This document shows positions 1,062 to 25,378 of a stretch of DNA of 33,135 nt, piece by piece. Made by a program: the position numbers and the translations under genes. The stretch comes from an uncultured Mycoplasmatota bacterium (GTDB lineage Bacteria; Bacillota_I; Bacilli_A; RF39; UBA660): NCBI GenBank assembly GCA_947574085.1, contig CANPIH010000007.1, positions 1 to 33,135 of the forward strand. Direction: 5' to 3'. Within the stretch, counting starts at the first letter, position 1. Every line of letters starts with the position of its first letter. The notes beneath the pieces were generated by a model. It worked only from the letters and a program-made list of their open reading frames with translations. It had not been told where the DNA came from and ran no database searches.

Positions 1062-1337
1062 GTGGATACAAAAAATAGTGTTTTTACTGCTAAAAATGAT
1101 AAAGGAGAGGCAAAAACATACGAAATAATATTTAAATTTGATTCTGAAGAAACAAAAAAAAGCTATGTTGTATATACAGATTATAAAAAAGAAAAAGGAA
1201 AAACTAAAGTATATGCAAATGTTTACGATAAAACTGGAAGAAGTAAAGAACTTTTGCCAATCGAAACGGAAGAAGAATGGAATACAATTGAAACATTTTT
1301 AAGTAAATTAGAGGTTGAGTTTGATGAAAAAAATTAG
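1062..1337 (+). CDS. DUF1292 family protein (YrzB-like)
   Basis: GTG start; acidic 91-aa protein; conserved position after ruvX. Confidence 0.75.
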   Translation: MDTKNSVFTAKNDKGEAKTYEIIFKFDSEETKKSYVVYTDYKKEKGKTKVYANVYDKTGRSKELLPIETEEEWNTIETFLSKLEVEFDEKN

Positions 1338-6858: not shown

Positions 6859-6875
6859 AAGGCTTCTTTTGTATT
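6849..6875 (+). terminator. Terminator overlapping the tig stop codon
   Basis: GGAGCTT/AGGCTTC stem (with G.U pairs) followed by TTTT. Confidence 0.5.
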
Positions 6876-6887
6876 TCTATTTTTAGG

Positions 6888-6916
6888 TTGTAAATCAAAA
6901 AAAATTGGTATATAAT
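6888..6916 (+). promoter_or_regulatory. Promoter of the surface-protein cassette
   Basis: TTGTAA (6888-6893), 17-nt spacer, TATAAT (6911-6916). Confidence 0.7.
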
Positions 6917-6941
6917 AATTTTAAGATAGAGGTGGAAGGAA

Positions 6942-8219
6942 ATGAAAGATGATAGCAGAAATTATCCAACCAATTCCGCGGGAAAACGTAAATTTTCAAA
7001 AAAACCGAAGTCATTTCTTTTTTTATTAATTATTTTAGTCCTTTTAAGTGTTGCACTAGGAATTAGTTATGCATATTGGAAATACAATAGCAATCAAATT
7101 AATGAAAATATTACAAATAGTGCTTGCATTGAAATAGCATTAATAAGTGAAACAGAAGCAATTACCTTACAAAAAGCTCATCCTATTTCAAACACAGAAG
7201 GAGAAAAATTAAATCCTTATACATTTAGTATAAAAAACACTTGTAATAATACATTAGATTATAATGTTGCTTTGGAAGTATTAGAATCAACAGCAAGAAT
7301 GGGAAGCAATAATATTGCAATTAAAATAGATGATAAATTTCCAAAATTACTCACAGAATATACTCTTGGTGTACCAACTTATTTAGAAAATTCGAACCCA
7401 GCGGTAGAAAGTTATATTTTAGAAAATGGTAGAATAAAAGGGGGAGAAACGATTACACATCATCTTCGACTTTGGATTCATGAATCATCTGGCAATGAAA
7501 GTCAAAATAAAGAATTTTTAAGTAAAATTACTATAAACGCTACTACCCCAAATGAAATACTTACAACGCCAAGAATTCTTATTTATAAAGATGAAGAATT
7601 ATTAAAAGAAATAGAAAGCAAAGAAGAAAATCAAGAATACCGAATATATAGTGATAAAGAAGTAAAAGTTCTTGCTTCAGGATTTAGCAATAGCAATAAA
7701 TTATTTTATAGTGAAGAACAAAATGGAGAAAGAAATGAAATTAGTACAAATGAATTTACTATTACTCCATCTCTAGAAGGAACTATTCGCTACATATTTG
7801 TTGAAGACAGTAATAATTATGTAAAATTGGTGATAACAAATAAAGATGATGTCACCCCTCCAATAATTTCAGGAGGAAGTGAAACGTACGCTAAAAATCA
7901 TACCATTCGGATTGAAACTCCTGGTACTGCTACTGCTGAAGTTTCTCATTATGAATACTTTATAAGCGATACTGATTCTATCCCAGCACAGGATGTTACA
8001 GCCCAAAATACTTCAGGTGATCAAGAAATTAATAGAGAAGGAACAAATTATATTTTTTATAGAACCGTTTCCAAAGCTGGAAATAAAAGTGACTGGAGCA
8101 ATTCACAAAAAGTAAATATTTTTTATCGTGCGAGTTCAGTAACCTATACAAATCCAAATGATTCTTCTATAAACAATGCTCAAGAAGTATTAGATAAGTT
8201 GTATGAGTTATTTAAATAA
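6942..8219 (+). CDS. SipW/TasA-type secreted or anchored surface protein with Ig-like region
   Basis: KKPKSFLFLLIILVLLSVALGISYAYW N-terminus typical of SipW-dependent signal peptides; SFSIKNTCNNTLDYNVALEVL-type region; C-terminal SSINNAQEVLDKLYELFK. Confidence 0.65.
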   Translation: MKDDSRNYPTNSAGKRKFSKKPKSFLFLLIILVLLSVALGISYAYWKYNSNQINENITNSACIEIALISETEAITLQKAHPISNTEGEKLNPYTFSIKNTCNNTLDYNVALEVLESTARMGSNNIAIKIDDKFPKLLTEYTLGVPTYLENSNPAVESYILENGRIKGGETITHHLRLWIHESSGNESQNKEFLSKITINATTPNEILTTPRILIYKDEELLKEIESKEENQEYRIYSDKEVKVLASGFSNSNKLFYSEEQNGERNEISTNEFTITPSLEGTIRYIFVEDSNNYVKLVITNKDDVTPPIISGGSETYAKNHTIRIETPGTATAEVSHYEYFISDTDSIPAQDVTAQNTSGDQEINREGTNYIFYRTVSKAGNKSDWSNSQKVNIFYRASSVTYTNPNDSSINNAQEVLDKLYELFK

Positions 8220-8236
8220 ATAAAAAGGAGATAATT

Positions 8237-8701
8237 ATGGAAAAATTAAAAAATAAAAAAGTAATATTTTTTGTTGTAGTTGTAGTAGCAATTGCAGTTC
8301 TTATAATAGGAGCAACGTTTATTTTAAGAAATAAAAAAGGATTAATTAACAATTCAAATCAAAATTCAGAAAATATTTCAAAAGAAAATGAAAATAAGAA
8401 TCCAAATGATAATTTTATTCCAAGTGATAAAGATACCAACTTTGATTTTCATTTGGATGATACCAAATATGAAGAAAATACAACTGAATTTATAGTAACT
8501 ATAACAAATAAATCGAATCAGCCCAAATACTTAAATGAATTTTTTATTCAATTAGAGAGCAATGAGGAAAGTAAAGAACAATTAAGAGTATATGGAATTG
8601 TAGAAAAAGAACTTGCATCGAACGAAACTATAACTATAAATTGTACCTATGGTGATGATTTGAAAAATTATAAAATAATTGGATATTCTATAGAAAAATA
8701 A
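8237..8701 (+). CDS. Membrane-anchored extracellular protein of unknown function
   Basis: N-terminal TM, Asn/Lys-rich linker, beta-rich ectodomain (TEFIVTITNKSNQPKYLNEFFIQLES); RBS AAAAGGAG; between two surface-protein genes. Confidence 0.65.
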   Translation: MEKLKNKKVIFFVVVVVAIAVLIIGATFILRNKKGLINNSNQNSENISKENENKNPNDNFIPSDKDTNFDFHLDDTKYEENTTEFIVTITNKSNQPKYLNEFFIQLESNEESKEQLRVYGIVEKELASNETITINCTYGDDLKNYKIIGYSIEK

Positions 8702-8724
8702 TTTAGAAAGAAAGGTTTTAAAAT

Positions 8725-9972
8725 ATGAAAAAAATAATGTTTATAACGCTTTTAATTTACTTTTCCATTACAAATGTATTTGCTCTTACAACAAATGAAG
8801 TTTTATACGATAAAGAAGGAACAGATATTACTTCAACGGAAGCCTTAGACGAACTATACGATAAATTACATATATGTAGCACTGAAGGAAATGCTACTGC
8901 CAGTGATATATTAGGTGGTAAAACAGCATATAGTAAAGGTGAAAAAGTAACAGGTACCATACCAACTATGACAACGGCAGGTACAACAAGTGATGGGAAA
9001 GCAAAACACGTTGATGCATCGCAAGTGGTGTATGGAAATTACAGTAATGATACCTCAAACAATTATTTATATTTAGGAATAGCTAAACACACATATACGG
9101 GAGAAAATACACATGTAAGAACGTCAGAAAGTGAAGTAGTAAAAGTATTAGGAATTACAGGAGAAAAATTAGCAAAAGGTCAAACAATTGCTGGGGTAAG
9201 TGGAACGTATACAAGCGATGCGAATGCCACCGCAAATAACATTTTGAGCGGAAAAACAGCATACGTTAATGGAAACAAATTAACAGGTACCATAGGAAGT
9301 AAAGGCGCAACGACCTATACACCAAGTACAAAAAATCAAACGATAACAGCAGGACAATATTTAAGTGGAACGCAGACAATAAAAGGAGATGCCAATTTAG
9401 TAGCAAGCAATATTAAAAAGGGAACGTCTATATTTGGAGTTACAGGTACTTACGAAGGAGACATAAAAGTGAAGAATTATAGGAATGTAGTCGCAACAGT
9501 CGAAAGCTACTATAAAGAATTTAAAGGTTCTTACGTTAATATGGCTAATGAAACTTGTGGAGCCAATCAAAATAATTGTAATAGTTCTTACAGTACAATA
9601 TGTCTTAATCTAGGATTTACTCCATCCGATATCATTAACGCCAGTTTACAGTTGAGTGGTGATGGTCTTTTTAGAACGACAAGAGGTGTAGACAGTGCTG
9701 GAATTACTACCTATAGATATTTAAGCAGCTTACCAGGAATCTATGATAAAGCTTTAGCAGGATCCAGCTCTTCACTTCCAAACATGCAATTTGATAATAG
9801 TTCCAATTCCAATACTTCATCTATGAGTAGTTATTATATAGACTATAACAATTCAAAATTATGTTATCGTTTTATTGCAACCTATTGGAGCAATGTAGCT
9901 GGATCGGCTCATAATGCATTCGCTACTAATTCCACATCTTTTAAGATATCTGGAACAGTAGTTTATAGATAA
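8725..9972 (+). CDS. Secreted protein with tail-fibre-like GK-AY-NG-K-TGT repeats
   Basis: Signal peptide MKKIMFITLLIYFSITNVFA; repeats ATASDILGGKTAYSKGEKVTGTI and ATANNILSGKTAYVNGNKLTGTI plus GDANLVASNIKKGTSIFGVTGTY; Cys-containing C-terminal domain. Confidence 0.75.
   Translation: MKKIMFITLLIYFSITNVFALTTNEVLYDKEGTDITSTEALDELYDKLHICSTEGNATASDILGGKTAYSKGEKVTGTIPTMTTAGTTSDGKAKHVDASQVVYGNYSNDTSNNYLYLGIAKHTYTGENTHVRTSESEVVKVLGITGEKLAKGQTIAGVSGTYTSDANATANNILSGKTAYVNGNKLTGTIGSKGATTYTPSTKNQTITAGQYLSGTQTIKGDANLVASNIKKGTSIFGVTGTYEGDIKVKNYRNVVATVESYYKEFKGSYVNMANETCGANQNNCNSSYSTICLNLGFTPSDIINASLQLSGDGLFRTTRGVDSAGITTYRYLSSLPGIYDKALAGSSSSLPNMQFDNSSNSNTSSMSSYYIDYNNSKLCYRFIATYWSNVAGSAHNAFATNSTSFKISGTVVYR
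8893..8961 (+). repeat. Protein repeat copy 1 (ATASDILGGKTAYSKGEKVTGTI)
   Basis: Direct comparison with 9226-9294. Confidence 0.8.
9226..9294 (+). repeat. Protein repeat copy 2 (ATANNILSGKTAYVNGNKLTGTI)
   Basis: Direct comparison with 8893-8961; a third divergent unit lies at 9385-9453. Confidence 0.8.
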
Positions 9973-10110: not shown

Positions 10111-10545
10111 ATGTTTATGGGCGAATATCATCACAATCTTGATGATAAATCAAGACTAGTGCTACCTTCTAAATTTCGGAACAATTTAGGGGAAAGATTT
10201 ATAATCGCACGTGGTCTTGAAAAATGTTTATATGTCTATCCTATGAAAGAATGGGAAAGAATTGAAAAACAATTAAAATCTCTACCTTTTACAAAAAAAG
10301 ACGCCCGAACATTTGTGAGATCCTTCTTTTCTGGTGCTACTGAATGTGAGTTCGATCGACAAGGAAGAACTTGCCTTACCTCCCCACTAGTTAGTTACGC
10401 CGGTTTATCACATGAATGTGTTGTAATCGGCGCAAACGACCGTGTTGAAATATGGGATAAACAATCTTGGGAAGAACTTATGAATACTAATCAAGACATT
10501 TTATCAGATATAGCAGAAAATTTATTTATGGATGTGAGCTTTTAA
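10111..10545 (+). CDS. mraZ: Transcriptional regulator MraZ
   Basis: MFMGEYHHNLDDKSRLVLPSKFRNNLGERFIIARGLEKCLYVYP; adjacent to rsmH. Confidence 0.96.
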   Translation: MFMGEYHHNLDDKSRLVLPSKFRNNLGERFIIARGLEKCLYVYPMKEWERIEKQLKSLPFTKKDARTFVRSFFSGATECEFDRQGRTCLTSPLVSYAGLSHECVVIGANDRVEIWDKQSWEELMNTNQDILSDIAENLFMDVSF

Positions 10546-11468
10546 TGAAGCATTTTAGCGTAATGAAAACAGAAGTTATAGAACATTTAAAAATAAAAGA
10601 AAATGGTATTTATGTAGATGCTACTTTAGGATATGCTGGTCATAGTAAAAGTATTTTAAGAAACATAAAAACAGGTTTTTTATTCGCTTTTGATAAAGAC
10701 AAAGAAGCGATTTTATATGCTAACACTGAATTAAAATCCATTCATGATCACTTTAAAATATTTCATAGTGATTTTGTTCACATGAAAGAGTGCCTACGAA
10801 AGGAAAAAATTGAAAAAGTAGATGGAATTTTATTTGATTTAGGAGTGTCTAGTCCACAAATAGATGAGCAAGAGCGTGGATTTTCTTTTATGCAAGATGG
10901 GCCATTAGATATGAGGATGGATCGTTCGCAAACATTTAGTGCAAAAAATGTAATTAATGAGTACGAAAAAGAAGATTTGCTTACGATGTTTTATACCTAT
11001 GGGGAAGAACCTAAAAGTAGAATAATTGTAGATACAATAATAAAATGCCGTAAAGAGAAAGAAATATCTTCAACAAAAGAATTTGTAAATATTATAGAAA
11101 AAGCGGTAGGTGCAAAATACTTTTTTGAACATCATCCAGAAAGACAAATTTTTCAAGCAATAAGAATAGAAGTAAACAATGAGTTAAATGTTTTAGAAAA
11201 GGTCCTGCCAGATGCGATTTCTTTGCTGAATAAGGGAGGAAGAATTTGTGTTATTACTTTTCACTCTTTAGAAGATCGAATTGTAAAACGAATATTTAAA
11301 AAATATAGTGAAATTGATAGTTTTGTTAAAGGGTTACCACACATACCAGATGAATACAAACCAATAATTCAGATAATAAATAAAAAGCCTATAGAGGCGA
11401 GTAAAGAAGAAATTGAAAAAAATTCTCGAAGTAAAAGTGCTAAACTTCGTATTGTAGAAAGGATATAA
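10545..11468 (+). CDS. rsmH: 16S rRNA (cytosine1402-N4)-methyltransferase RsmH
   Basis: HFSVMKTEVIEHL, DATLGYAGHS, GILFDLGVSSPQIDEQERGFSFMQDGPLDMRMD, ICVITFHSLEDRIVKRIF. Confidence 0.96.
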   Translation: MKHFSVMKTEVIEHLKIKENGIYVDATLGYAGHSKSILRNIKTGFLFAFDKDKEAILYANTELKSIHDHFKIFHSDFVHMKECLRKEKIEKVDGILFDLGVSSPQIDEQERGFSFMQDGPLDMRMDRSQTFSAKNVINEYEKEDLLTMFYTYGEEPKSRIIVDTIIKCRKEKEISSTKEFVNIIEKAVGAKYFFEHHPERQIFQAIRIEVNNELNVLEKVLPDAISLLNKGGRICVITFHSLEDRIVKRIFKKYSEIDSFVKGLPHIPDEYKPIIQIINKKPIEASKEEIEKNSRSKSAKLRIVERI

Positions 11469-11470: not shown

Positions 11471-11776
11471 ATGAAAAAGAATATGAAAGGGCGTAATTTT
11501 AAAATTTTAAAAGGAGAAAAAATTTTATATTTTTTACTATTTTTGCTATTGGTTGCGATACCTGTATCGAATGTATTTACCAAAGCACTTTTATCAGAAT
11601 CTAACATTGAGGTAGAAAAATTACGTAATAAAATCAATACACAAGAAAATTTAAATGAAAGTTTGAATATGCAAATTAATGAACTTGCTTCTTTAGATAA
11701 AATTCAAGAACTTGCAAAATCTACTGGATTAACATATAATTATGATAATATAAAAGTAATTCATAATAGTAATTAA
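11471..11776 (+). CDS. ftsL: FtsL-like division protein
   Basis: Short basic N-terminus, one TM, coiled-coil ectodomain; located between rsmH and PBP. Confidence 0.7.
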   Translation: MKKNMKGRNFKILKGEKILYFLLFLLLVAIPVSNVFTKALLSESNIEVEKLRNKINTQENLNESLNMQINELASLDKIQELAKSTGLTYNYDNIKVIHNSN

Positions 11777-11788: not shown

Positions 11789-13891
11789 ATGAAGAGAAAC
11801 AATGGTTTAAAATACAATTTAAAAGTTACTATGCTATTGGTTTCTTTTTTATTTGTACTAATAATTTGTAAACTTTTATATGTATCTGTTTCGGAAAAAG
11901 TAGATGGAGTAGATCTTCAAGCTTTTGCTAGTAATCGTAATACAGAGAAAAAAACCTTATTTGCCTCTCGTGGAAGTGTATTTTATGAAAATGGAGACGT
12001 TTTGGCAATTGATACAAATTCTTATACAGTACTTGCTTATTTATCGGCAAGTCGAACAACCGATGAAAATAATCCATATCATGTAATTGATAAAGAAAAA
12101 ACTGCCAAAGAATTGAGTGGAATTTTAGAAAGAGATGAAACAACTTTATTAGAGCTTTTGAATAGAGAAAATTTATATCAAGTGGAATTAAAACGAGGAA
12201 TTTCAGAAAATGATAAAAATAAAATATTGGCTCTCGATTTACCAGGAATAGATTTTGTAAGAAGTACGAAAAGATATTATCCAAATGGCAGATATGCTTC
12301 TTTTATCCTTGGATACGCCAAAGCAAATGACTTTGGAGAAATTAATGGAGAAATGGGTTTAGAACTTTATTATAATGATATTTTGAAGGGAAAAAATGGA
12401 TTCATTGAATATCAAAAAGATCCTTATGGATTTCAAATTCCCAATACACCTGTTATAGAAGAAAAAAGCGTTAGTGGTAAAAACATATATTTAACTTTAA
12501 ATCAGGATATTCAGCATATTTTAGAAAATGCAATCCATAGTTTGGAAAAGGATTATACATTTGATTGGGCAACTATTTCAATTATGAATGCCAAAACGGG
12601 TGCAATTTTAGGTAGTGCAACAAGTCCTAATTTTGATTTAAATACTAGAATTGATTTAGATAGTTATTTAAATCCGTTCATTTCTTATCAATATGAACCA
12701 GGATCAGTTATGAAAATATTTTCATTTATGCAAGCTATTGAAAGTGGAATTTACGATGGATCGAAAATATATAAATCAGGATCTATAACTTTACAAGATG
12801 GAACTAAAATAAATGATTATAATAATAAAGGATGGGGAGAAATAGACTTTGATACTGGTTTTGCTTATTCTAGTAACGTTGCTGCAACAATATTAGCTTT
12901 AGAGCTAGGTGCAGATAAATTAAGATCTTTTTACGATACGTTAGGGTTTGGTAAGGCAACAGGAATTGAATTGCCTAATGAATCCGATGGAAAAATTACT
13001 TTTACTTACGAAAGTGAAGTAGCAACAGCATCTTTTGGTCAAGGGATTACAGTAACACCCATTCAAATTTTACAGGCTTTAACTACTTTAGCAAATGATG
13101 GAATGATGATAAAACCTTATTTAGTATCTAAAATAGTAGATGAAAATGGTACAATTATAGAAGAAAAGGGTAGAACTGAAATTGCTAAAGTAGCAAGTAA
13201 AGAAACTATTGATAAAATGAAAGAATTGATGTATAAAGTGGTTTACGATGCTGGAAATACCAATCGTTTATTTGCACCAGATAATGTTACATTAATTGGA
13301 AAAACAGGAACTGCCCAAATTGCTAGTCCAAAAGGTGGATATTTGGATGGAGAGTACGATTATATCAAAAGTTTTGCTGGTTTATTTCCTTATGAAAATC
13401 CTGAATATATTGTGTATATTGCTGTAAAGCAAATTGTGGGAGGAACAAACGATGTGGCTAAAATAGTTCATAATGTAGTGGAAGAAACAGCTAAGACATT
13501 AAATTTAGTCTCTACAGTAAGTGATGTTGATCAAAGCAAAATTGTAACTTTATCTAATTATATTTCCAATCAAATTCAAACCACTGTGGAAAAATTATTT
13601 TCTCAAGGATTAACACCAATTGTTATTGGTAATGGGAAATATGTTATTAATCAATATCCTTTGCGGAATAAAAAAGTTTTAATAGGATCGAAAGTATTTT
13701 TGCTTACGAATGATACAAACTATAAAATGCCTAATGTTATTGGATGGAGTACTAATGAAATAGTGACCTTATGTAACTTAATAGGAGTTCCTTATGAACT
13801 AAATGGCTATGGAAATGTTAGTTCAATATCAGTTTTGCCAGGAGATTTTATTGATAAGTCAAATCCTATCGTTGTTACGTTAACAAATTAA
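11789..13891 (+). CDS. Division-type class B penicillin-binding protein (PbpB/FtsI-like) with C-terminal PASTA domain
   Basis: SVMK, SSN and KTGTAQ motifs; KMPNVIGWSTNEIVTLCNLIGVPYELNG PASTA segment; dcw position. Confidence 0.92.
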   Translation: MKRNNGLKYNLKVTMLLVSFLFVLIICKLLYVSVSEKVDGVDLQAFASNRNTEKKTLFASRGSVFYENGDVLAIDTNSYTVLAYLSASRTTDENNPYHVIDKEKTAKELSGILERDETTLLELLNRENLYQVELKRGISENDKNKILALDLPGIDFVRSTKRYYPNGRYASFILGYAKANDFGEINGEMGLELYYNDILKGKNGFIEYQKDPYGFQIPNTPVIEEKSVSGKNIYLTLNQDIQHILENAIHSLEKDYTFDWATISIMNAKTGAILGSATSPNFDLNTRIDLDSYLNPFISYQYEPGSVMKIFSFMQAIESGIYDGSKIYKSGSITLQDGTKINDYNNKGWGEIDFDTGFAYSSNVAATILALELGADKLRSFYDTLGFGKATGIELPNESDGKITFTYESEVATASFGQGITVTPIQILQALTTLANDGMMIKPYLVSKIVDENGTIIEEKGRTEIAKVASKETIDKMKELMYKVVYDAGNTNRLFAPDNVTLIGKTGTAQIASPKGGYLDGEYDYIKSFAGLFPYENPEYIVYIAVKQIVGGTNDVAKIVHNVVEETAKTLNLVSTVSDVDQSKIVTLSNYISNQIQTTVEKLFSQGLTPIVIGNGKYVINQYPLRNKKVLIGSKVFLLTNDTNYKMPNVIGWSTNEIVTLCNLIGVPYELNGYGNVSSISVLPGDFIDKSNPIVVTLTN

Positions 13892-13901
13892 ATTGCTGAT
13901 T

Positions 13902-13920
13902 TTATAACTTTCAGTTATAA
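13902..13920 (+). promoter_or_regulatory. Inverted repeat upstream of the truncated paralog (TTATAACT-TTC-AGTTATAA)
   Basis: Perfect 8-bp stem, 3-nt loop; overlaps a TATAAT-like hexamer; weak terminator or promoter element. Confidence 0.5.
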
Positions 13921-13949
13921 TAAAATAAAGTAAATGAAGAGGTGTTTTT

Positions 13950-14492
13950 ATGAATCTAGCTATTTATAATGCCAAAATTGCCAGTTTTCGTGAAGAAGTA
14001 CGAGAATTAAAGAAAAATATTTTAAAACGGAAAATAGAAAATGTTTCGGATTTTAATGCCCTTTTTCGTGAGGTAAATTCCATGATTTCTGAATACAATG
14101 CTCTTTATTATGGATTTGCTAATCCAGTAAACCAAGAACAATTTATTAAATATATGGAAGGAGAAAATGATTTTTTGTCAACAATTAACAATTTAACGAA
14201 AATTTTAAAAGAGCATCACCAAAAAAATGGTCTTTTTGTGGAAGATTATGTAATTCAAAAAGAATGGGAACATGTAAAAAAAATCATAGAATACAATAAC
14301 TGTTTAGTCGAATTAAGAACTATTTTCCCAGAATTATCTGATTTTTCCAATCCAAAGAAAATAGAATATAATGATCGATTTGTATATTTAAATGAAAAAA
14401 TTACTAAATTAGAGTTGGAAAAAAAGGAAGCAGAAAATCGAATTATAGAATTAGCAAATAAAAATAAATTAAAAAAAGAAAAGAAGCGTTAA
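13950..14492 (+). CDS. Truncated paralog (180 aa) of the 786-aa coiled-coil protein, N-terminal domain only
   Basis: First 168 aa identical to ORF 14797-17157, then a different Lys-rich tail ANKNKLKKEKKR; RBS GAGGTG retained. Confidence 0.7.
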   Translation: MNLAIYNAKIASFREEVRELKKNILKRKIENVSDFNALFREVNSMISEYNALYYGFANPVNQEQFIKYMEGENDFLSTINNLTKILKEHHQKNGLFVEDYVIQKEWEHVKKIIEYNNCLVELRTIFPELSDFSNPKKIEYNDRFVYLNEKITKLELEKKEAENRIIELANKNKLKKEKKR

Positions 14493-14558
14493 GATCTATA
14501 AACTATATTTTAGAAAAAAGAACGAAAAAGTTTCTCCGATAAAGAAAGTATAACAAAA

Positions 14559-14738
14559 TGATACAAACTATAGAATGCCTAATGTTATTGGATGGAGTAC
14601 TAAAGAATTAGTAACCTTATGTAACTTAATAGGAGTTCCTTATGAACTAAAAGGCTATGAAAATGTAAATTCAACATGAGTTTTGCCAGGAGTTTTAATG
14701 ATAAGTCAAATCCTATCGTTGTTACGTCAACAAATTAA
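14559..14738 (+). pseudogene. Relic of the PBP PASTA 3' end
   Basis: DTNYRMPNVIGWSTKELVTLCNLIGVPYELKGYENVNST then in-frame TGA (14677-14679) and a 1-nt deletion; matches 13711-13891 with about a dozen substitutions. Confidence 0.9.
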
Positions 14739-14748
14739 ATTGCAGATT

Positions 14749-14767
14749 TTATAACTTTCAGTTATAA
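14749..14767 (+). promoter_or_regulatory. Duplicated inverted repeat upstream of the 786-aa gene
   Basis: Same TTATAACT-TTC-AGTTATAA, exactly 847 nt downstream of the first. Confidence 0.5.
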
Positions 14768-14796
14768 TAAAATAAAGTAAATGAAGAGGTGTTTTT

Positions 14797-17157
14797 ATGA
14801 ATCTAGCTATTTATAATGCCAAAATTGCCAGTTTTCGTGAAGAAGTACGAGAATTAAAGAAAAATATTTTAAAACGGAAAATAGAAAATGTTTCGGATTT
14901 TAATGCCCTTTTTCGTGAGGTAAATTCCATGATTTCTGAATACAATGCTCTTTATTATGGATTTGCTAATCCAGTAAACCAAGAACAATTTATTAAATAT
15001 ATGGAAGGAGAAAATGATTTTTTGTCAACAATTAACAATTTAACGAAAATTTTAAAAGAGCATCACCAAAAAAATGGTCTTTTTGTGGAAGATTATGTAA
15101 TTCAAAAAGAATGGGAACATGTAAAAAAAATCATAGAATACAATAACTGTTTAGTCGAATTAAGAACTATTTTCCCAGAATTATCTGATTTTTCCAATCC
15201 AAAGAAAATAGAATATAATGATCGATTTGTATATTTAAATGAAAAAATTACTAAATTAGAGTTGGAAAAAAAGGAAGCAGAAAATCGAATTATTGAATTA
15301 AATAAAAATACACCAAAAGGAGAGTATAAAAAAGATCATGAAAAAATAGTCAAGGCTCAAGAGGAAATAAATCAAAAAGGAAAAGAAGCATTAAGATCTA
15401 TAGGCTATATTTTAGAAACAAAAGATAAAAATATAGAAACTTCTACATTTTCAGAAACAGTTTCTATCGATAAAGAAAGTATAGTAATTCGAGAGGAATA
15501 TTTAAACTCTCTTCCTACCATTACTTCCAAAATAGAATATGTGGAGGCAGTGCTTGATAATATTGAAAGATTACCAGGAAAAAAAGTCTTAAAGTTTAAA
15601 GGTTCAACAGAAACCATAGCTAAAAGCTTTAGAGGACGTTATCTTATTTATCAGCAAAGACTTATAAAATTAAAAGAGCAATACGAAGAGGAACAAAAAA
15701 AATTTTTGCGAAAAATTGAAGAAGAACACGAAGCGGTTGCTCTAGCCGAAGAAGAAGCAAGAGAAGATAAAATTGAGCTTTATATCATAGGAAAAAATTT
15801 ACAAGATATAGAAGAGGAACTTTTTGCTTTAGGAAACGAGGCTACACCTTATATCAATACCAATAAAGTAGCTATTGTTGCTTCAGTTCACGAGGAACCT
15901 TTTTATGTATTAAAAACAAAACTGGAAAAATTTAATAAAATTTTTGTGGAGTATAAAAGTTTGCAAAAAAAATACCAGAAATTAGCTAATTTTCTTCAAA
16001 TTGAACCTATTTCAACTTTAGAAAAATGGAAAATTATTGAAAAAGAAGAAAAAAAATGTTTTGAAGAGATAGAATTTTTAAAAAAGCAAACAGAAACAAA
16101 AGAGACAAAAAGTAAAATTAATCAGTTAAAAAATGAAATCTATAAAAAAAATCAGAGTAAAGAATTTGCTTTATTTGTCAATATCAAAAACATGTTATCA
16201 ACTTATTATTTAAATAATAACATTCGCTCTTTTTATGAAAAAATTATGAAAGATCCAAAAAAGTTTCTTTTATCAAAAGATTACGCAAATGATGAAAAAA
16301 GACAAATATTTATGGATTTAATAGCAAAAACTTCAGAGTATATAAAAAAATCTCAAGAAAAAAGGGCAAAAGATTCTAAGAAACCGATAAAAACAAAAGA
16401 AATAATAGAAAATTCGTTTATAGAATTAAAAAGAAATTTGAATTTAATTCCTAAAACAAAAAAAAATGTTTTCAAAATCAAGAAAAATAGAGAAGCAAAT
16501 TATAAAACAAAATTAGCCTATACTGTTTGTGCAACGGCTACTGGATGTGCCTTTTTACTTGGGTTAAATGTTATTAGTTATGCGTGCAATAGTACTTCTT
16601 CGAAAAAAGTATTTACAGCGAATACAAAAGAATTTATGACCTCTAATTCCAGTCGTATAAGTGGTAGTATAGAAAAAGATATAAAGAAAGTTTTAAATGA
16701 AGAAAACAAACAAATTCAAAATGTTTTAAAAAATACATATTCTTATACTGAAAATGAACTAGAAGATTTTAAAAAAGAAAAAATTGCATTAGAAAAAGTA
16801 AAAAAAGATGTAAATCAGGATAATCAGAAAAGAAATTTTGATGACCTTTTTACTAATAAAAATGGTGTTTACATTTCGCAAGAAGACTTACTGAAGGAAG
16901 AGAACAAACAACCACTTTATTTTTCTGAGGATAGTCTAAGTACGGTAAAAGGAATTGTTTATTCTTATAATGGAACCAGTATTACAATTTTTGAAGATGA
17001 TCCAGAAGCTAAAGAAAAAATAAAAGCTATAGAAAACCATGGTGCAAAACAAATTGGTTATGTGGGAACGAATCTACAAGCTATTGGAACAGGCTATGAA
17101 GGTTTTTTCGCTAATAAAGATATTCAATTTGTAGAAGAGGAAGGACGCAGTAGATAA
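14797..17157 (+). CDS. Large coiled-coil single-pass membrane protein of unknown function
   Basis: About 570 aa of Lys/Glu-rich helical sequence, one TM (KLAYTVCATATGCAFLLGLNVISYAC), then a ~200-aa C-terminal, probably extracytoplasmic, domain. Confidence 0.8.
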   Translation: MNLAIYNAKIASFREEVRELKKNILKRKIENVSDFNALFREVNSMISEYNALYYGFANPVNQEQFIKYMEGENDFLSTINNLTKILKEHHQKNGLFVEDYVIQKEWEHVKKIIEYNNCLVELRTIFPELSDFSNPKKIEYNDRFVYLNEKITKLELEKKEAENRIIELNKNTPKGEYKKDHEKIVKAQEEINQKGKEALRSIGYILETKDKNIETSTFSETVSIDKESIVIREEYLNSLPTITSKIEYVEAVLDNIERLPGKKVLKFKGSTETIAKSFRGRYLIYQQRLIKLKEQYEEEQKKFLRKIEEEHEAVALAEEEAREDKIELYIIGKNLQDIEEELFALGNEATPYINTNKVAIVASVHEEPFYVLKTKLEKFNKIFVEYKSLQKKYQKLANFLQIEPISTLEKWKIIEKEEKKCFEEIEFLKKQTETKETKSKINQLKNEIYKKNQSKEFALFVNIKNMLSTYYLNNNIRSFYEKIMKDPKKFLLSKDYANDEKRQIFMDLIAKTSEYIKKSQEKRAKDSKKPIKTKEIIENSFIELKRNLNLIPKTKKNVFKIKKNREANYKTKLAYTVCATATGCAFLLGLNVISYACNSTSSKKVFTANTKEFMTSNSSRISGSIEKDIKKVLNEENKQIQNVLKNTYSYTENELEDFKKEKIALEKVKKDVNQDNQKRNFDDLFTNKNGVYISQEDLLKEENKQPLYFSEDSLSTVKGIVYSYNGTSITIFEDDPEAKEKIKAIENHGAKQIGYVGTNLQAIGTGYEGFFANKDIQFVEEEGRSR

Positions 17158-17444
17158 TGGAAAAATTTGAATTGTATAAGATTTTAACTATAGAAACTGA
17201 AGAAGGTAATGATAAAGATTATACCATTGCAAATATATTAGAATATAATGAGACCACTTATTTTTATCTAATTGAAGTTGACAAAGAAGAGAATTTAATT
17301 GAAAAAAATCAAATGATTGTTAGATTAGTTAGTCAAAATGGAGAAGACGCAGTAGAAAAAGTTACTAATAAAGAGGAATTGAAAGAAGTAACAAGTTTAT
17401 TTTTTGATATATTTAGAGACGAAATTGAAAAGGACAATAATTAA
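17157..17444 (+). CDS. DUF1292-like acidic protein (second in the window)
   Basis: LTIETEEGNDKDYTIANILEYNETTYFYLIEVDKEE; TAATG overlap with the 786-aa gene. Confidence 0.6.
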   Translation: MEKFELYKILTIETEEGNDKDYTIANILEYNETTYFYLIEVDKEENLIEKNQMIVRLVSQNGEDAVEKVTNKEELKEVTSLFFDIFRDEIEKDNN

Positions 17445-17455
17445 TGTCCTTTTTT
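17429..17455 (+). terminator. Intrinsic terminator overlapping the stop codon
   Basis: AGGACA-ATAATTAA-TGTCCT followed by T run. Confidence 0.8.
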
Positions 17456-17587: not shown

Positions 17588-18265
17588 ATGAATACAAATA
17601 GTGTGATGATCGGCGATTCAATTAAACTCAATACTCGTATAAATAGTTTACTTTATTTAAAAATAAAACGTGTTTTTGATATTTTTTTCGGCTTATTTGG
17701 AGTGTTTTGCATGTTACCCATTGCTTTTATTATTAAAATAATTTGTATTTTTAATCATGATCATAATAGTATATTCTTCAAACAACAAAGAATTGGAAGA
17801 AATGGTAAAATGTTTTCAATGTATAAATTTAGAACAATGGTTCCTAATGCTAATCAAGCTTTAATCGAACTTATGCGTACCAATCCAGATTTTAGAAATG
17901 AATATTACCAAAACAAAAAAGTCAAGAATGATCCTCGCATTACAAAAATAGGAAAAATCTTGCGTAAAACATCATTAGATGAAATACCTCAATTTATAAA
18001 CGTTTTATTAGGTGATATGAGTTTAGTAGGAAATCGTCCTTATTTACCTATTGAAAAAGAAGATATGGGAGGGTATTTTAACATCATAACCTCTACGAAA
18101 CCAGGCTTAACTGGAATTTGGCAAGTTAGTGGTCGTAGCAATACAACTTTTCAAAAGAGATTGATTTTAGAAAAAAATTACAGTTTAAATTATAGCCTTA
18201 AAATAGATCTAGAAATTATTTGGAAAACTATTATTCAAATTTTTAAAAGAGAAGGAGCAGAATAA
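17588..18265 (+). CDS. Initiating sugar transferase (undecaprenyl-phosphate glycosyl-1-phosphate transferase, bacterial sugar transferase family)
   Basis: KRVFDIFFGLFG; FKQQRIGRNGKMFSMYKFRTM; LRKTSLDEIPQFINVLLGDMSLVGNRPY; KPGLTGIWQVSGRS. Confidence 0.95.
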   Translation: MNTNSVMIGDSIKLNTRINSLLYLKIKRVFDIFFGLFGVFCMLPIAFIIKIICIFNHDHNSIFFKQQRIGRNGKMFSMYKFRTMVPNANQALIELMRTNPDFRNEYYQNKKVKNDPRITKIGKILRKTSLDEIPQFINVLLGDMSLVGNRPYLPIEKEDMGGYFNIITSTKPGLTGIWQVSGRSNTTFQKRLILEKNYSLNYSLKIDLEIIWKTIIQIFKREGAE

Positions 18266-18294
18266 AAATGAAAAGGGAGAAAAAAGTGTGTTAA

Positions 18295-18322
18295 AATAAC
18301 TATAGATATAGTTATTTTTTTT
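18295..18322 (+). terminator. Hairpin/terminator inside the polysaccharide locus
   Basis: AATAACTATA-GA-TATAGTTATT followed by T run. Confidence 0.75.
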
Positions 18323-18341
18323 ATAAGGAGTTGAATAAGAT

Positions 18342-19589
18342 TTGAAGAAAAGACGAATGTTACTATATGCTCATTATTTTTACCCTGAAGTAGCTTCAAC
18401 GGCTCAAATTCTTACTGACTTATGTCAAGGCTTAAAAGATGAATTTTTAATTACAGTTGTTTGCACAGTTCCAAGTTATGTAGGTAAAATAGATAAAAAA
18501 TACAAACAAAAGAAATATTATTTTGAAAATTACGAGGGAATAAAATTAATTAGAGTTCGAGTTAAAGAATTTCAAAAGAAAAAGAAAATAAGTAGATTAA
18601 TGCATATACTTAGCTATTTTTGGAATGCCATTTTTGCAACTTTTAAAGTTGGACATCAAGACATAGTTTTTGCAATATCTCAACCTCCAATTTTAGGAGG
18701 TATTCTTGGAAATTTAGGACGAATAATTACAAAGGGAAAATTTATTTATAATATTCAAGATTTTAATCCAGAACAAATTATGGCTGTAAAATATTCAAAA
18801 AATAAATTTCTTTTAAAGTGTCTTCTTTGGCTTGATAAACATTCTTGTCAAAAAGCGGACCTGATTATCACCGTAGGATATGATATGCAAAAAACTCTAG
18901 AAAAACGTTTTTTTAAAAAGAAAGTACCTCAAAATGTTGTAATACATAATTGGATAAATGAAAGAGAAGTTTATCCTTTAGAAAAAACAAACAAAAACGT
19001 TCAAAAATTTCAAAAAAAGTTTGCTTTGGAAAATAAATTTGTAATTATGTATTCTGGAAATTTAGGATTGTATTATGATTTAGAAAATTTAATAAAAGTA
19101 TTTCAAGAATTTAAAGAAGAAAAAGAAATAGTTTTTGTTTTTGTAGGAGATGGCTCATTAAAAGAAAAATTAGAACAATACGCTTTTAGTAACAAATTAG
19201 ACAATATAACATTTATTCCTTATCAAGAAAAAAAGAATTTAATTTATAGTTTGAATTCTGCAAATATTCATTTGGTTACCAATGCAAAAGGAATCAAAGG
19301 GATTTCTGTACCAAGTAAAATTTATGGTTGCTTAGCAACCAATATTCCTATTTTTGGGATAGTTGAAAAAGGATCAGAGGCATGGAATATTATTAAAAAA
19401 TCCAATTGTGGAATTCTTTCTTCTCCAGAAAAGTATGAAGATATTAAACAAAATTTGCAAAAAATAATATTAGAAAAAGAAGAATTTGTAAATCAGCATA
19501 AAACAGGTAGAAAGTATTTAGAAGAAAATTTTACAAAAGACAAAGCGGTTCATAAATACCTTGAGGAAATAAAAAAGTTAATTGAGTAG
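18342..19589 (+). CDS. Glycosyltransferase family 4 (WcaI-like)
   Basis: YAHYFYPEVASTAQILTDL; IMYSGNLGLYYDLENLI; VFVGDGSLKEKLE; VPSKIYGCLATNIPIFG. TTG start with AAGGAG upstream. Confidence 0.9.
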   Translation: MKKRRMLLYAHYFYPEVASTAQILTDLCQGLKDEFLITVVCTVPSYVGKIDKKYKQKKYYFENYEGIKLIRVRVKEFQKKKKISRLMHILSYFWNAIFATFKVGHQDIVFAISQPPILGGILGNLGRIITKGKFIYNIQDFNPEQIMAVKYSKNKFLLKCLLWLDKHSCQKADLIITVGYDMQKTLEKRFFKKKVPQNVVIHNWINEREVYPLEKTNKNVQKFQKKFALENKFVIMYSGNLGLYYDLENLIKVFQEFKEEKEIVFVFVGDGSLKEKLEQYAFSNKLDNITFIPYQEKKNLIYSLNSANIHLVTNAKGIKGISVPSKIYGCLATNIPIFGIVEKGSEAWNIIKKSNCGILSSPEKYEDIKQNLQKIILEKEEFVNQHKTGRKYLEENFTKDKAVHKYLEEIKKLIE

Positions 19590-19597
19590 GTGTCTTA

Positions 19598-20317
19598 ATG
19601 AAAGAAAGAGATTTTTTTATATCAGTTGCTATGGCAACATATAATGGTGAACAATTTATTCATGAACAAATTGCTTCTATTTTAAAAAATTTAAATGAAA
19701 AAGATGAACTTATAATATCGGATGATGACTCAACAGATCGTACAATACCTATTATTCTTTCTTTTAAAGACAGAAGAATTCATGTAATAAAAGGACCAAA
19801 AAAAGGAGTAAAGCAAAACTTTGCAAATGCAATTGCCAGTTGTAAAGGAAAATACATTTTTTTATCGGATCAAGATGACCTATGGCATAAAGAAAAAGTG
19901 GAAAAGATTTTGGAAGTTTTTCAAAAAGAAAGATGTGATTGTGTGACCCATGATTGTGAAGTGGTAAATAATGATAATTCTAAAGTAATCATTGCTTCTT
20001 TTTTTGCTCATAGAAAATCAAAGCCTGGAATTATTCAAAATATATATAAAAATAAATATTTAGGTTGCTGTATGGCTTTTCATAAAAATATGATAAAATA
20101 TATATTACCTATTCCAGATACAATTGAAATGCATGATCAATGGATAGGAATTGTATGTGATAAATATGGAAAATCTGTTTTTTTAAAAGAAAAATTGATA
20201 AAATATCGTCGTCATGCTAAAAATGTATCTGCAATGCACCATTATCCACTAGCAAAAATGATTAAAAATAGAATTGTATTGCTAATTGAATTTTACAAAA
20301 GAGTAAAAAGAAAGTAA
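19598..20317 (+). CDS. Glycosyltransferase family 2 (rhamnosyltransferase-like)
   Basis: ISVAMATYNGEQFIHEQIASIL; ELIISDDDSTDRT; FLSDQDDLWHKEKVEK. Confidence 0.93.
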   Translation: MKERDFFISVAMATYNGEQFIHEQIASILKNLNEKDELIISDDDSTDRTIPIILSFKDRRIHVIKGPKKGVKQNFANAIASCKGKYIFLSDQDDLWHKEKVEKILEVFQKERCDCVTHDCEVVNNDNSKVIIASFFAHRKSKPGIIQNIYKNKYLGCCMAFHKNMIKYILPIPDTIEMHDQWIGIVCDKYGKSVFLKEKLIKYRRHAKNVSAMHHYPLAKMIKNRIVLLIEFYKRVKRK

Positions 20318-20338
20318 TTAAATAAAAAGAAAGGTTGA

Positions 20339-21406
20339 ATGAGTATGATTCCATATATCCTTTTAATATTCTTAATAGTTGTTTCTTATTTTTTAATAAA
20401 CAAACGATTCAATAATGCTAAAAAAAAATATTGCATTTTTGTAGGAGTCCTTTTATTTTTACTCCTTGCTTTTCGTAATACATCTTTAGGTATAGACCTA
20501 AAAAGATTATATATTCCCTATTTTAATATTATTAAAAATTTATCTTTTGGAGAAACAATCCGTTTTAGTCAGAGTCACCAAACAGAAGTTGTATTTTATT
20601 TGCTAAACAAAACAATTTCATTATTTACTGACAATATTCATTTTTATTTAGCTATTGTAGCCATTCCATATATTTTTACAGTTAGTCGATTTATTTACAA
20701 ATACTCAAAAAATCCACTTTTAAGTTTTTTGATTTTTCTTTCTTTAAACTATTATTGTTTTAGTTTTTCGGCCTTGCGTCATACTTTAGCAGCGAGTTTC
20801 TTAATTTTTAGTTATGATTATTTAAAAGAAAAAAAATGGTTACCCTTTCTTTTTTGTGTAATACTTGCTTCTTTATTTCATCGTACAGCTTTCATTTTTT
20901 TGCTTGCTTATCCTTTAGCGTATTTAAAAATAAATTGGAAGCAAATTGTGCTTAGCCTTTTGCTTATTTTTTGTTCTACTTTATTAAGAGATTTTTTATT
21001 CCAGTTGCTATTTTTTATTTTTGATTCTGGACATTTTGCTAATTATTTAAATATTGGAGAATCAATGAGTTTGGTATTTTTTACCATTAATTTTTTACTA
21101 TATTTATTTATGATATACTTATTTAAGAATAATAAAAATAAAATGGAAAATCGTGTTCTTTTGAATTTACAATTTTTATGTATTTGCTTTGCTTCTTTAA
21201 CTCCTGTATTAGGAGAAATGATTCGAATTAGTTTCTTCTTTGGTGTATTCTTATGTGCAAGTTTACCCAATGCCATAGAGAATTCAAAATACGCACAAAA
21301 TAAAAAGGTATATTATAGTGTTTTAAGTATTAGTTTTATTCTTTATTTTTTCAACTTCACCCTTTATAATAGTTCATTAGTACCTTATGTAAGTATTTTT
21401 GATTAG
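20339..21406 (+). CDS. EpsG/Wzy-like polysaccharide polymerase
   Basis: Multi-TM; LLAFRNTSLGIDLKRLYIPYF; SFSALRHTLAASFLIFSYDYLKEKKWLPFLFCVILASLFHRTAFIFL. Confidence 0.88.
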   Translation: MSMIPYILLIFLIVVSYFLINKRFNNAKKKYCIFVGVLLFLLLAFRNTSLGIDLKRLYIPYFNIIKNLSFGETIRFSQSHQTEVVFYLLNKTISLFTDNIHFYLAIVAIPYIFTVSRFIYKYSKNPLLSFLIFLSLNYYCFSFSALRHTLAASFLIFSYDYLKEKKWLPFLFCVILASLFHRTAFIFLLAYPLAYLKINWKQIVLSLLLIFCSTLLRDFLFQLLFFIFDSGHFANYLNIGESMSLVFFTINFLLYLFMIYLFKNNKNKMENRVLLNLQFLCICFASLTPVLGEMIRISFFFGVFLCASLPNAIENSKYAQNKKVYYSVLSISFILYFFNFTLYNSSLVPYVSIFD

Positions 21407-21420
21407 AAGGAGATGTATTT

Positions 21421-22329
21421 ATGGACAAAGAAACAATGGAAGCCTTAGAAAAAATAGTAGCCAAATACAATTTACTTATAGCTTCTAAAGAATATAAAAC
21501 AGGAGTAAAATGGATAGAACTTAATACTCTTATGAAAAAAGGAAAAATTTTTACCATCTTAAAAAAAATTATTGTTCATAAAAAGATAAAAAAATATGAA
21601 AATCCTACGCCCACTTTTTTTTCAATTAACAACACACCCATCGTTAAAAAGAAAATTGTTATATACTCTTGCATAATTGGAGATTACGACAATATAAGAA
21701 ATCCAATTTTTAAAAATCCTAATTGTGACTATATTCTTTTTACAGATAATTCCAAAATTCAAAAATGTAGTTGGGATATTCAAGAAATAGCAAAAGAAAT
21801 AAAAGAAAAATATTCCAATAATAAAACAATAATCAATCGTTATTATAAATTAAATCCACAAGAGTTGTTTCCAAATTACGATTATGCAATTTATGTAGAT
21901 GGTAATGTTGAAATCGTATCGGATTTAACCACATTAATTCATAACGTTGGTTCTTTAGGAATTGCTTTACATAAGCATTGCTTTCGTAACTGCATATATG
22001 ATGAATTAGAAGCCTGCAAAATTTTAAAAAAAGGAAATATTTTCAAACTTCAAAATCAAATCGAAAATTATAAAAAGGAAAATTTTCCTTCTCACTATGG
22101 GATGGCAGAATGTGGTTTAATAATTACCGATTTAAAAGAAGAAGTAGCAAAAGAAATTATGAGAGATTGGTTTTTGGAGTTTTTTCATTCTTCAAGTTTA
22201 AGAGATCAAATTGCATTACCATATATTTTATGGAAGAAAAATATCAAAGTAGAGCAAATTACAACCTTAGGAAATAATATTTTCCAAAATCCCAAAATGA
22301 TTATTCATAAAAATCATAAAAAAAATTAA
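21421..22329 (+). CDS. DUF616 / TOD1-MUCI70 glycosyltransferase-like protein
   Basis: KIVIYSCIIGDYDNIRNPIF...YILFTDN; YKLNPQELFPNYDYAIYVDGNVEI; HKHCFRNCIYDELEACK. Confidence 0.75.
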   Translation: MDKETMEALEKIVAKYNLLIASKEYKTGVKWIELNTLMKKGKIFTILKKIIVHKKIKKYENPTPTFFSINNTPIVKKKIVIYSCIIGDYDNIRNPIFKNPNCDYILFTDNSKIQKCSWDIQEIAKEIKEKYSNNKTIINRYYKLNPQELFPNYDYAIYVDGNVEIVSDLTTLIHNVGSLGIALHKHCFRNCIYDELEACKILKKGNIFKLQNQIENYKKENFPSHYGMAECGLIITDLKEEVAKEIMRDWFLEFFHSSSLRDQIALPYILWKKNIKVEQITTLGNNIFQNPKMIIHKNHKKN

Positions 22330-22347
22330 AAGAGGGAGAAGAAACTT

Positions 22348-23259
22348 ATGATTCAGAAAATAAAAAGTTATATTTTGCATCCTAATAAATGGATTGTTTT
22401 TTTGGCTTCTAGAAATATTTTAAAAATAAATGATGAAAAATATTTAAAAATTATCTATAAAATAATAATGGGTAAACAACTAAATTTAGAAAATCCTATA
22501 ACTTTTAATGAAAAAATAAATTGGTTAAAATTGTATGATCGAAAAGAAATTTATACAATTATGGTTGATAAATATTTGGTGAAGAATTGGGTGGCCTCAA
22601 AAATAGGAGAAGAATATATAATTCCAACAATAAATGTATACAATTCTTGGAAAGAAATTAATTTTGATGATTTACCAAATCAATTTGTTTTAAAATGCAA
22701 TCATGACTCGGGTGGAAATATTGTTTGTCAAGATAAAAAAAACTTAGATTTCCAAAAAGCTAAGAAAAAAATTAAAAAAACATTACGAAGAAATTTTTAT
22801 TATTTGGCTCGAGAATGGCCTTATAAGAATGTAGATAAAAAAATAATTGTGGAAAAGTACATGAGCGATGATAAGCAAAAAAAAGGATTGATCGATTACA
22901 AATTTATGTGCTTTCATGGAAAAGCCAAATACATTTTTGTTTGTCAAAATCGAGAGAGTAAATTTGGTGTAACAATTGATATCTTAAATACAAAGTGGGA
23001 AAAATTGCCTTATAGACGAAAAAATCATAATTCTAGTAAAAATATAATAAAACCTAAAAATTATGAATTAATGATTCAATTGGCAGAAAAGTTAGCAGAA
23101 AATGTTCCTTTTTTAAGAGTCGATTTTTATGAAATAAACTATAAAGTTTACTTTGGAGAAATGACATTTTATCCTGGTGGTGGACTAGAAAAATTTGAAC
23201 CAGAAGATTTTGATAAAATTCTAGGAGACAGCTTGGAAATAGGAGGGATAAGAAAATGA
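22348..23259 (+). CDS. TupA-like ATP-grasp protein
   Basis: NPITFNEKINWLKLYDRKEIYTIMVDKYLVKNWVASKIGEEYIIPT; QFVLKCNHDSGGNIV; IVEKYM; DYKFMCFHGKAKYIFV; LRVDFYEINYKVYFGEMTFYPGGGLEKF. Confidence 0.87.
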   Translation: MIQKIKSYILHPNKWIVFLASRNILKINDEKYLKIIYKIIMGKQLNLENPITFNEKINWLKLYDRKEIYTIMVDKYLVKNWVASKIGEEYIIPTINVYNSWKEINFDDLPNQFVLKCNHDSGGNIVCQDKKNLDFQKAKKKIKKTLRRNFYYLAREWPYKNVDKKIIVEKYMSDDKQKKGLIDYKFMCFHGKAKYIFVCQNRESKFGVTIDILNTKWEKLPYRRKNHNSSKNIIKPKNYELMIQLAEKLAENVPFLRVDFYEINYKVYFGEMTFYPGGGLEKFEPEDFDKILGDSLEIGGIRK

Positions 23260-24752
23260 GAACCAAAATGGCTATCAAAAATGTATTTTTTTCTTTACTA
23301 CTTCAATTGGTTTCCATTATTTGTGGATTAATTGTACCTAAAATGATCATTACTCATTATGGATCAGCAACAAATGGTTTGATTGTTTCCATTACTCAAT
23401 TTTTGGCTTATATAGCTTTGTTAGAATCGGGGATAGGGCCAGTAGTTAAAGCGAAATTGTATAAACCTATTGCTGAAAAAAAGAAACAAGAAATTGAAAA
23501 CATACTGTTTGCTTCTGAACGTTTTTTTAAGTGGATTGCTAAAATTTTTTTAATATATGTATTTGCTTTGTGTATTTTTTATCCATTAATTGTAGCCAGC
23601 CAATTTGAAAAAGGATTTACTATATCTTTGATTGTCATTTTATCTTTAAGTACATTAGTAGAATATTATTTTGGCATTACGTATAAATTGTACTTGCAAG
23701 CAGAACAAAAAACCTACATAACGTCTTATTTTCAAATCGTATCTACAATTTTAAATACGATTGGTGTTTGTATTCTGGTATTTTTAGGAGCGAATTTGCT
23801 GTTTGTCAAAATTTTAAGCACTGTATTTTTTATCATACGTCCATTATTACAAAATTATTATGTAAAAAAAAGATTTAATCTTCATTTGCAAAATGCAAAT
23901 AAAAAATATATTTTAGAACAAAAATGGGATGGTTTGGCACAACATATAGCTGCGGTTATACACGGAAATACAGATATTACCATTTTAACTCTTTTTGCTA
24001 CCATTTCAGAAGTTTCTATTTATTCCATCTATTTATTAGTTATAAATGGAGTAAAACGAGTTATTTCTTCCTTTACTGGTGGTATAGATGCCTCCTTTGG
24101 AAATATGATAGCTAGAGAGGAATTAACAACTTTAAACAAAAGTTTTAATGGGTATGAATTTCTTTATTTTACCTTAATAACAATTATATACAGTTGCACT
24201 TTTTTATTAATTGTTCCTTTTGTAAAAATATATACTTTTGGGATAAAAGATGCCAATTACGTACGGCCACTTTTTGCCATTTTAATCGTTTTTTCTGAAT
24301 TTATGCATTCAATAAGACTTCCTTACAGTTCTTTAGTGATGGCAAGTGGTCATTTTAAAGAAACAAGAAGAGGTGCATGGTTAGAATCAATAATTAATAT
24401 AATTTTATCGCTACTTTTCGTTTTTCAATTTGGATTAATTGGAGTAGCTATTGGTACACTTTGTGCTATGACAATTCGAACCATCGAATTTGTAAAACAC
24501 ACCTCTTATTTTATTCTTAAAAGAAATATAAAAGAATCTGTTAAAAAGATCGGTCTATGTCTCATGGAAACATTAGTTATAGTTAGCATTTTTTGGTACA
24601 TACCAATAAAAATATATAACTATTTTAGCTGGATTTCTTACGCTTCTTTTGTTTTTCTATTTTCTTCTTTATTTGTGTTTTTTATAAATAGATTTATATT
24701 TAAAGACTCTTATCGATATATAAAGAGTACTTTAAAAAAACTTAAAAAATAA
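23256..24752 (+). CDS. Wzx-like lipopolysaccharide/oligosaccharide flippase
   Basis: Multi-TM with IVPKMIITHYGSATNGLIVSITQFLAYIALLESGIGPVV; ATGA overlap with the ATP-grasp gene. Confidence 0.9.
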   Translation: MRTKMAIKNVFFSLLLQLVSIICGLIVPKMIITHYGSATNGLIVSITQFLAYIALLESGIGPVVKAKLYKPIAEKKKQEIENILFASERFFKWIAKIFLIYVFALCIFYPLIVASQFEKGFTISLIVILSLSTLVEYYFGITYKLYLQAEQKTYITSYFQIVSTILNTIGVCILVFLGANLLFVKILSTVFFIIRPLLQNYYVKKRFNLHLQNANKKYILEQKWDGLAQHIAAVIHGNTDITILTLFATISEVSIYSIYLLVINGVKRVISSFTGGIDASFGNMIAREELTTLNKSFNGYEFLYFTLITIIYSCTFLLIVPFVKIYTFGIKDANYVRPLFAILIVFSEFMHSIRLPYSSLVMASGHFKETRRGAWLESIINIILSLLFVFQFGLIGVAIGTLCAMTIRTIEFVKHTSYFILKRNIKESVKKIGLCLMETLVIVSIFWYIPIKIYNYFSWISYASFVFLFSSLFVFFINRFIFKDSYRYIKSTLKKLKK

Positions 24753-24769
24753 AAAAAATGTCTAAATAT

Positions 24770-24797
24770 TGTAAATTTATGACAATTTACAGTTTTT
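24770..24797 (+). terminator. Inverted repeat after the flippase gene, possible terminator
   Basis: TGTAAATT-TATGAC-AATTTACA then GTTTTT. Confidence 0.5.
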
Positions 24798-24799
24798 AC

Positions 24800-24828
24800 T
24801 TGCAAAAAATTCAAAAAAAGTATAAAAT
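24800..24828 (+). promoter_or_regulatory. Probable promoter of the sortase operon
   Basis: TTGCAA (24800-24805), 17-nt spacer, TAAAAT (24823-24828) within TATAAAAT. Confidence 0.5.
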
Positions 24829-24856
24829 ACAACGTAAAAGAGAGGGATGATTATTT

Positions 24857-25363: not shown

Positions 25364-25369
25364 TAATAA
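25341..25369 (+). promoter_or_regulatory. 12-bp perfect hairpin between sortase substrate and sortase gene
   Basis: TTATTACTAGAA-AAAAA-TTCTAGTAATAA spanning the substrate stop codon; no T run follows. Confidence 0.75.
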
Positions 25370-25378
25370 AAATAATAC

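Follow-up and report, generated by a model that had tools for sequence, protein, structure and literature searches.

What does a 786-aa membrane protein that matches no named family do directly behind the division genes ftsL and pbpB, and why is a small DUF1292-like protein encoded with it? Both questions are raised by the window analyzed here, which is the whole of a 33,135-nucleotide contig from the genome of an uncultured Mycoplasmatota bacterium (1.36 Mb, 86% complete, 129 contigs). A preliminary description had recognized a large helical transmembrane (TM) protein and a DUF1292-like partner beside the division penicillin-binding protein (PBP), and had read them as a division or envelope scaffold. 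The observation is confirmed as a whole and the interpretation is partly supported. What is new is a two-gene unit found across the genus and belonging to a module specific to the lineage, and we infer its function as follows: the best explanation, to which we assign a probability of roughly 0.45, would be a lineage-specific trans-envelope scaffold, oriented N-in/C-out, with a cytoplasmic DUF1292 partner.

The gene pair and its place in the genus

The two reading frames share the overlap TAATG (Table 1), the stop/start coupling that had been noted before, and the 95-aa product exceeds the curated Pfam threshold for DUF1292 (PF06949) with 27.5 bits against a cut-off of 24. The DUF1292 partner gene lies directly 3' of the large gene in nearly all genus loci. 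Nearly all of the large proteins end in a GGR-like C-terminus; as a protein motif this ending was rejected, because it encodes the Shine-Dalgarno sequence of the downstream DUF1292 gene. DUF1292 is, to our knowledge, a family of unknown function, and a limited literature search found no functional study of it. Sequence searches of solved structures with both proteins gave no credible match. The usual DUF1292 site beside ruvX and ireB is occupied in this window by a paralogue and not by the 95-aa partner.

Between pbpB and the pair there is a promoter-like sequence composed of a TTGC(A/T)-type box, a spacer of 17-18 nt and a TATAAT-like box, found at the corresponding position in 15 of 18 genus loci; this fraction is a measure of conservation and carries no weight as an independent test, as the pattern was written after the sequences had been seen. 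The shared terminator of the preliminary description is also present, as a hairpin of 10 bp whose 3' arm is rich in U. A scan with a terminator consensus listed none at the locus, whereas RNA folding shows this hairpin, and visual inspection showed similar hairpins at several further loci of the genus. With a conserved promoter and a terminator of its own, the pair seems to be more than an extension of the pbpB operon. The two genes appear to form a dicistronic unit of their own next to pbpB, with readthrough from pbpB possible.

Table 1. Features of the gene pair, its predicted protein segments and its neighbors in the window
Feature	Position	Strand	Basis
Large bitopic helical protein, 786 aa	14797..17157	+	ORF; homologues in 22/22 genus genomes
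DUF1292-family partner, 95 aa	17157..17444	+	Pfam PF06949; start overlaps upstream stop
Promoter of pair, TTGCAG-N17-TATAAT	14740..14768	+	same arrangement at 15/18 genus loci
Shine-Dalgarno of DUF1292 gene, inside end of large gene	17137..17145	+	equivalent of relatives' GGR ending
Terminator hairpin overlapping end of DUF1292 gene	17427..17454	+	RNA fold, z = -4.9
Cytoplasmic helical part, residues 1-569, hairpins 262-275 and 358-372	14797..16503	+	AlphaFold2
Helix-hairpin-helix unit, recurring, residues 233-292	15493..15672	+	family-built HMM
TM helix, residues 570-597, N-terminal side basic (N-in)	16504..16587	+	AlphaFold2, hydropathy, positive-inside count
Disordered outer linker, residues 598-675	16588..16821	+	pLDDT <50; least conserved segment
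C-terminal outer beta domain, residues 681-781	16837..17139	+	AlphaFold2; best conserved domain
Truncated duplicate of large gene, 180 aa, residues 1-168 identical	13950..14492	+	sequence comparison
Decayed duplicate of pbpB 3' end (stop, frameshift)	14557..14739	+	sequence comparison
mraZ (neighbor, outside unit)	10111-10545	+	precedes pbpB
rsmH (neighbor, outside unit)	10545-11468	+	precedes pbpB
ftsL (neighbor, outside unit)	11471-11776	+	precedes pbpB
pbpB-type PBP with PASTA (neighbor, outside unit)	11789..13891	+	Pfam/NCBIfam, genus loci
Canonical DUF1292 paralogue (comparison, outside unit)	1062..1337	+	between ruvX and mltG/yceG, near ireB

A profile search found the large protein in all 22 genomes of the genus, so the arrangement is not peculiar to one genome. 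The placement right after ftsL and pbpB is conserved as well: in 19 of the 20 genomes with a readable flank the gene directly follows mraZ-rsmH-ftsL-pbpB, the sole exception being G003, in which the pair follows greA. The contigs of G017 and G018 end before the flank, and these genomes are hence not among the 20. Over 13 genus loci, mean pairwise identity is 27% for the large protein, 59% for DUF1292, 70% for pbpB, 73% for ftsL and 69% for rsmH. Distances between the large proteins track those of pbpB beyond rsmH (partial r 0.64), and there is no excess co-variation between the large protein and DUF1292 (partial r -0.04), although both correlations, resting on 13 linked loci, are weak evidence either way.

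The near-constant site and the correlation with pbpB are what would be expected of a dedicated division factor of the genus, with the large protein acting at the septum with FtsL and PbpB, like MapZ or EzrA, and being regulated by DUF1292. We regard this as rather unlikely: the pair carries a promoter and a terminator of its own, EzrA and DivIVA/GpsB are encoded separately, and other genera of this GTDB family have their related pairs at different sites; in all 29 other genera sampled in the family, pbpB was never followed by the large protein. The earlier step from position alone to a role in division is therefore not upheld, given also the location after greA in G003.

The preliminary description had overlooked that part of the locus is duplicated in tandem immediately upstream, leaving a truncated copy of the large gene. 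Positions 13709-14492 duplicate 14557-15339 at a spacing of ~847 nt, spanning the 3' end of pbpB and the first 168 codons of the large gene. The middle 549 nt (13898-14446 versus 14745-15293), which take in the start and the greater part of the promoter region, are 100% identical. On one flank the pbpB 3' tail is ~92% identical and its second copy is broken by a stop and a frameshift, and on the opposite flank the body of the large gene has decayed in the first copy. Such a restriction of identity to the middle, with diverged flanks, suggests gene conversion. We take the duplication to be real because a unique junction of decayed ends is hard to explain by merged strain variants. Tandem copies are also found in G015, which has two full copies, and in G069, a member of another genus, which has three homologues in a row.

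Rapid divergence relative to pbpB, tandem duplication and restriction to one lineage might be expected of a fast-evolving conflict element, whether defensive, phage-derived or selfish, that is kept by duplication. This is very improbable for a gene found in every genome of the genus at a nearly fixed site. A PHROG search gave no match and phage records gave none, so that a phage origin was rejected; a defense system was likewise set aside, the PADLOC matches being weak (15-18 bits).

Several features of the surroundings were recorded in their own right. A capsule-type polysaccharide cluster (17588-29520) lies in the window between the pair and a second PBP gene with mraY, which in several genomes of the genus directly follow the pair. 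In G003 (L183 820-3291) and G069 (L063 3728-11759) the pair or its homologues lie behind greA, close to U32-peptidase-type genes, and a greA/U32-peptidase-type cluster lies upstream in the present window; the greA-side location is possibly the older position of the pair. In G016:C1 (L031 ~1703-7213) the second PBP gene, a homologue of the one at 29729-31636 in the window, is interrupted by ~5.5 kb encoding a large serine recombinase and an ABC ATPase, an intervening element that is possibly skin-like. Positions 6942-9972 of the window hold three ORFs (425, 154 and 415 aa) without a Pfam match, one of which has repeated TA-NILSGKTAY-type segments.

Predicted architecture of the large protein

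The large protein had been described as belonging to no recognizable family, and this still holds: no Pfam or NCBIfam family matched it, and no known unrelated family emerged from Pfam, NCBIfam, PHROG or Foldseek. AlphaFold2 modeling of the full-length protein with 19 sequences gave a pLDDT of 75 and a pTM of 0.42. In the model residues 8-549 are helical, but the two beta-hairpins interrupt them, so the region first described as coiled coil is predicted not to be purely so. A helix-hairpin-helix unit of ~62 aa is the best conserved part of this region and recurs among homologues, one protein having as many as four copies, according to an HMM that was seeded on these same proteins and so shows recurrence, not independent detection. 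Foldseek searches with the whole protein returned helical rods only, none of them significant.

The single TM helix was placed by the preliminary description in the opposite sense to that of EzrA, and the charge pattern agrees. Summed over 30 homologues, the 20 residues flanking the helix contain 239 lysines and arginines before it and 69 after it, which supports an N-in/C-out topology. The small C-terminal domain noted earlier is a confidently predicted beta domain, with a pLDDT of 88 and a pTM of 0.79 when folded alone. It has the highest identity of any segment (40%), and the linker preceding it has the lowest (16%). Foldseek found no significant match for this domain (all E >0.6), the top matches including staphylococcal autolysin repeats (4epc; E = 0.62, TM-score 0.40) and other SH3 domains. 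Wall binding by the outer domain is thus a guess, given that no fold match is significant.

In G003 and G009 the two halves of the protein are split. A TM-less cytoplasmic version with a DUF1292 gene, which is the pair found at the main site, lies apart from a short protein that carries the TM helix and outer domain and has its own DUF1292 gene (G009, L181 4699-6781 and L187 2586-3766; G003, L183 820-2741 and L188 5775-6815). One continuous tether is therefore not always needed.

A wider module of DUF1292-like genes

The related pairs of other genera occupy varied sites, among them one with a flippase-like gene and mnmG, one with a feoB-like gene and tex, one near a UvrD-type helicase and a VanY-type peptidase, and one before a purine nucleoside phosphorylase gene. 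A profile of the partner-type DUF1292 subfamily matched 99 of 156 genomes of the GTDB family, with 1-5 copies in each, and gave only one marginal match outside it in a sample of the class. Unlike PF06949 in general, this subfamily is almost confined to the one family. The outer-domain profile gave no match outside the family in the samples searched. Publicly named relatives, found by an alignment search with DUF1292, are metagenome-assembled genomes of uncultured Bacilli and Tenericutes, several with gut-type sample names; they presumably fall within GTDB order RF39.

At 27 of the 28 informative top loci, the DUF1292-like gene is directly 3' of an open frame of at least ~490 codons. Farther down the ranking, most of the genes sampled lie a short way behind a charged ORF of 138-740 aa, with exceptions such as one located after an apparent ribosome-recycling-factor gene. 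This sample favors coupled pairs, because the search profile was built on coupled pairs. As judged from these loci, the present pair represents one form of a broader module in which a DUF1292-like gene follows a charged, helical, often long ORF. At two loci (L074 6972-7943 and L067 7385-8359) a DUF1292-like sequence is fused to a protein of the purine nucleoside phosphorylase family.

Many of the long upstream ORFs are TM-less, as are the versions at the main site in G003 and G009, and most of the wider sample has charged ORFs upstream. These features would suit a helical scaffold of a cytoskeletal or more general kind, in which anchoring to the membrane is just one variant, with DUF1292-like proteins serving as assembly or stability factors for long helical proteins. 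We consider this distinctly unlikely in view of the origin of the sample in a profile of coupled pairs, the mostly undemonstrated homology among the upstream ORFs, and the DUF1292-like genes that follow unrelated genes. A related generalization, which we put forward as doubtful, is that the DUF1292 proteins of this family of gut Bacilli are dedicated co-translated partners of a broad class of long helical scaffolds, and that in this genus one such pair became a tether across the envelope, fixed next to the division PBP. If this generalization is true, it would open the function of DUF1292 proteins to genetics; the recurrence, across many genera, of coupling to charged and helical proteins, often long ones, points to a partner, which would permit a direct test of DUF1292 function.

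Proposed role and comparison with known systems

The trans-envelope scaffold is favored because of the coupled genes with their own promoter and terminator, the presence of the large protein throughout the genus, the charge pattern, the predicted succession of rod, linker and outer domain, the contrast between the best conserved outer domain and the least conserved linker, and the similar pairs in other genera. Approximately 570 helical residues with beta-hairpin modules would lie inside the cell, followed by one TM helix, beyond which some 80 disordered residues could enter the wall. The small outer domain, perhaps SH3-like, would probably contact the wall or another envelope protein, and the DUF1292-like protein, produced by translational coupling, probably binds the cytoplasmic part. 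Of the role first proposed, an envelope scaffold is still the most reasonable form, and a division scaffold would be a special case of it. The adjacency to pbpB in the genus makes a part in building the wall or in division plausible; division proper is no more than possible, because the pair is apparently a separate transcription unit, occurs in other contexts and coexists with ordinary EzrA and DivIVA/GpsB. If the pair is an envelope tether, a small-genome lineage would be building a trans-envelope scaffold of its own next to a standard division cluster.

Like EzrA, the large protein has a long helical cytoplasmic part and one TM helix, but the helix of EzrA is at the N-terminus, while here it lies in the C-terminal third (570-597 of 786) and is followed by an extra outer domain. 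The EzrA family (PF06160) had no match in the large protein, and a separate EzrA gene is present in 21 of 22 genus genomes, here at G000:C8. GpsB and DivIVA are similar in being helical proteins with a possible division role; the large protein is far larger, has a TM helix and does not match PF05103, and separate genes of the DivIVA family (DivIVA/GpsB) are found in 22/22 genus genomes. Homology to EzrA and to GpsB/DivIVA was rejected, as no Pfam, NCBIfam or PHROG family matched. The 95-aa partner is allied to DUF1292 proteins of the B. subtilis YrzB type by passing the family cut-off, and differs from the canonical members in the ireB-ruvX-mltG cluster in being coupled to a long helical protein. 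The SH3-like wall-binding repeats of staphylococcal autolysin are the top, non-significant fold match of the outer domain and have no Pfam match in it.

RodZ is an N-in protein with a single TM helix and an outer beta domain. The likeness of the large protein to RodZ is one of layout and not of homology, and the N-terminal HTH of RodZ has no Pfam match in it. MapZ, a streptococcal division-site protein, consists of an N-terminal cytoplasmic part, a single TM helix, a flexible linker and a C-terminal outer domain (PMC4931243). This layout is matched by the large protein, as predicted only, with a cytoplasmic part much longer than that of MapZ; no match to the MapZ family was found, and no MapZ fold match was listed or significant. 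By sequence the large protein is a member of neither family, and in layout it is MapZ- and RodZ-like.
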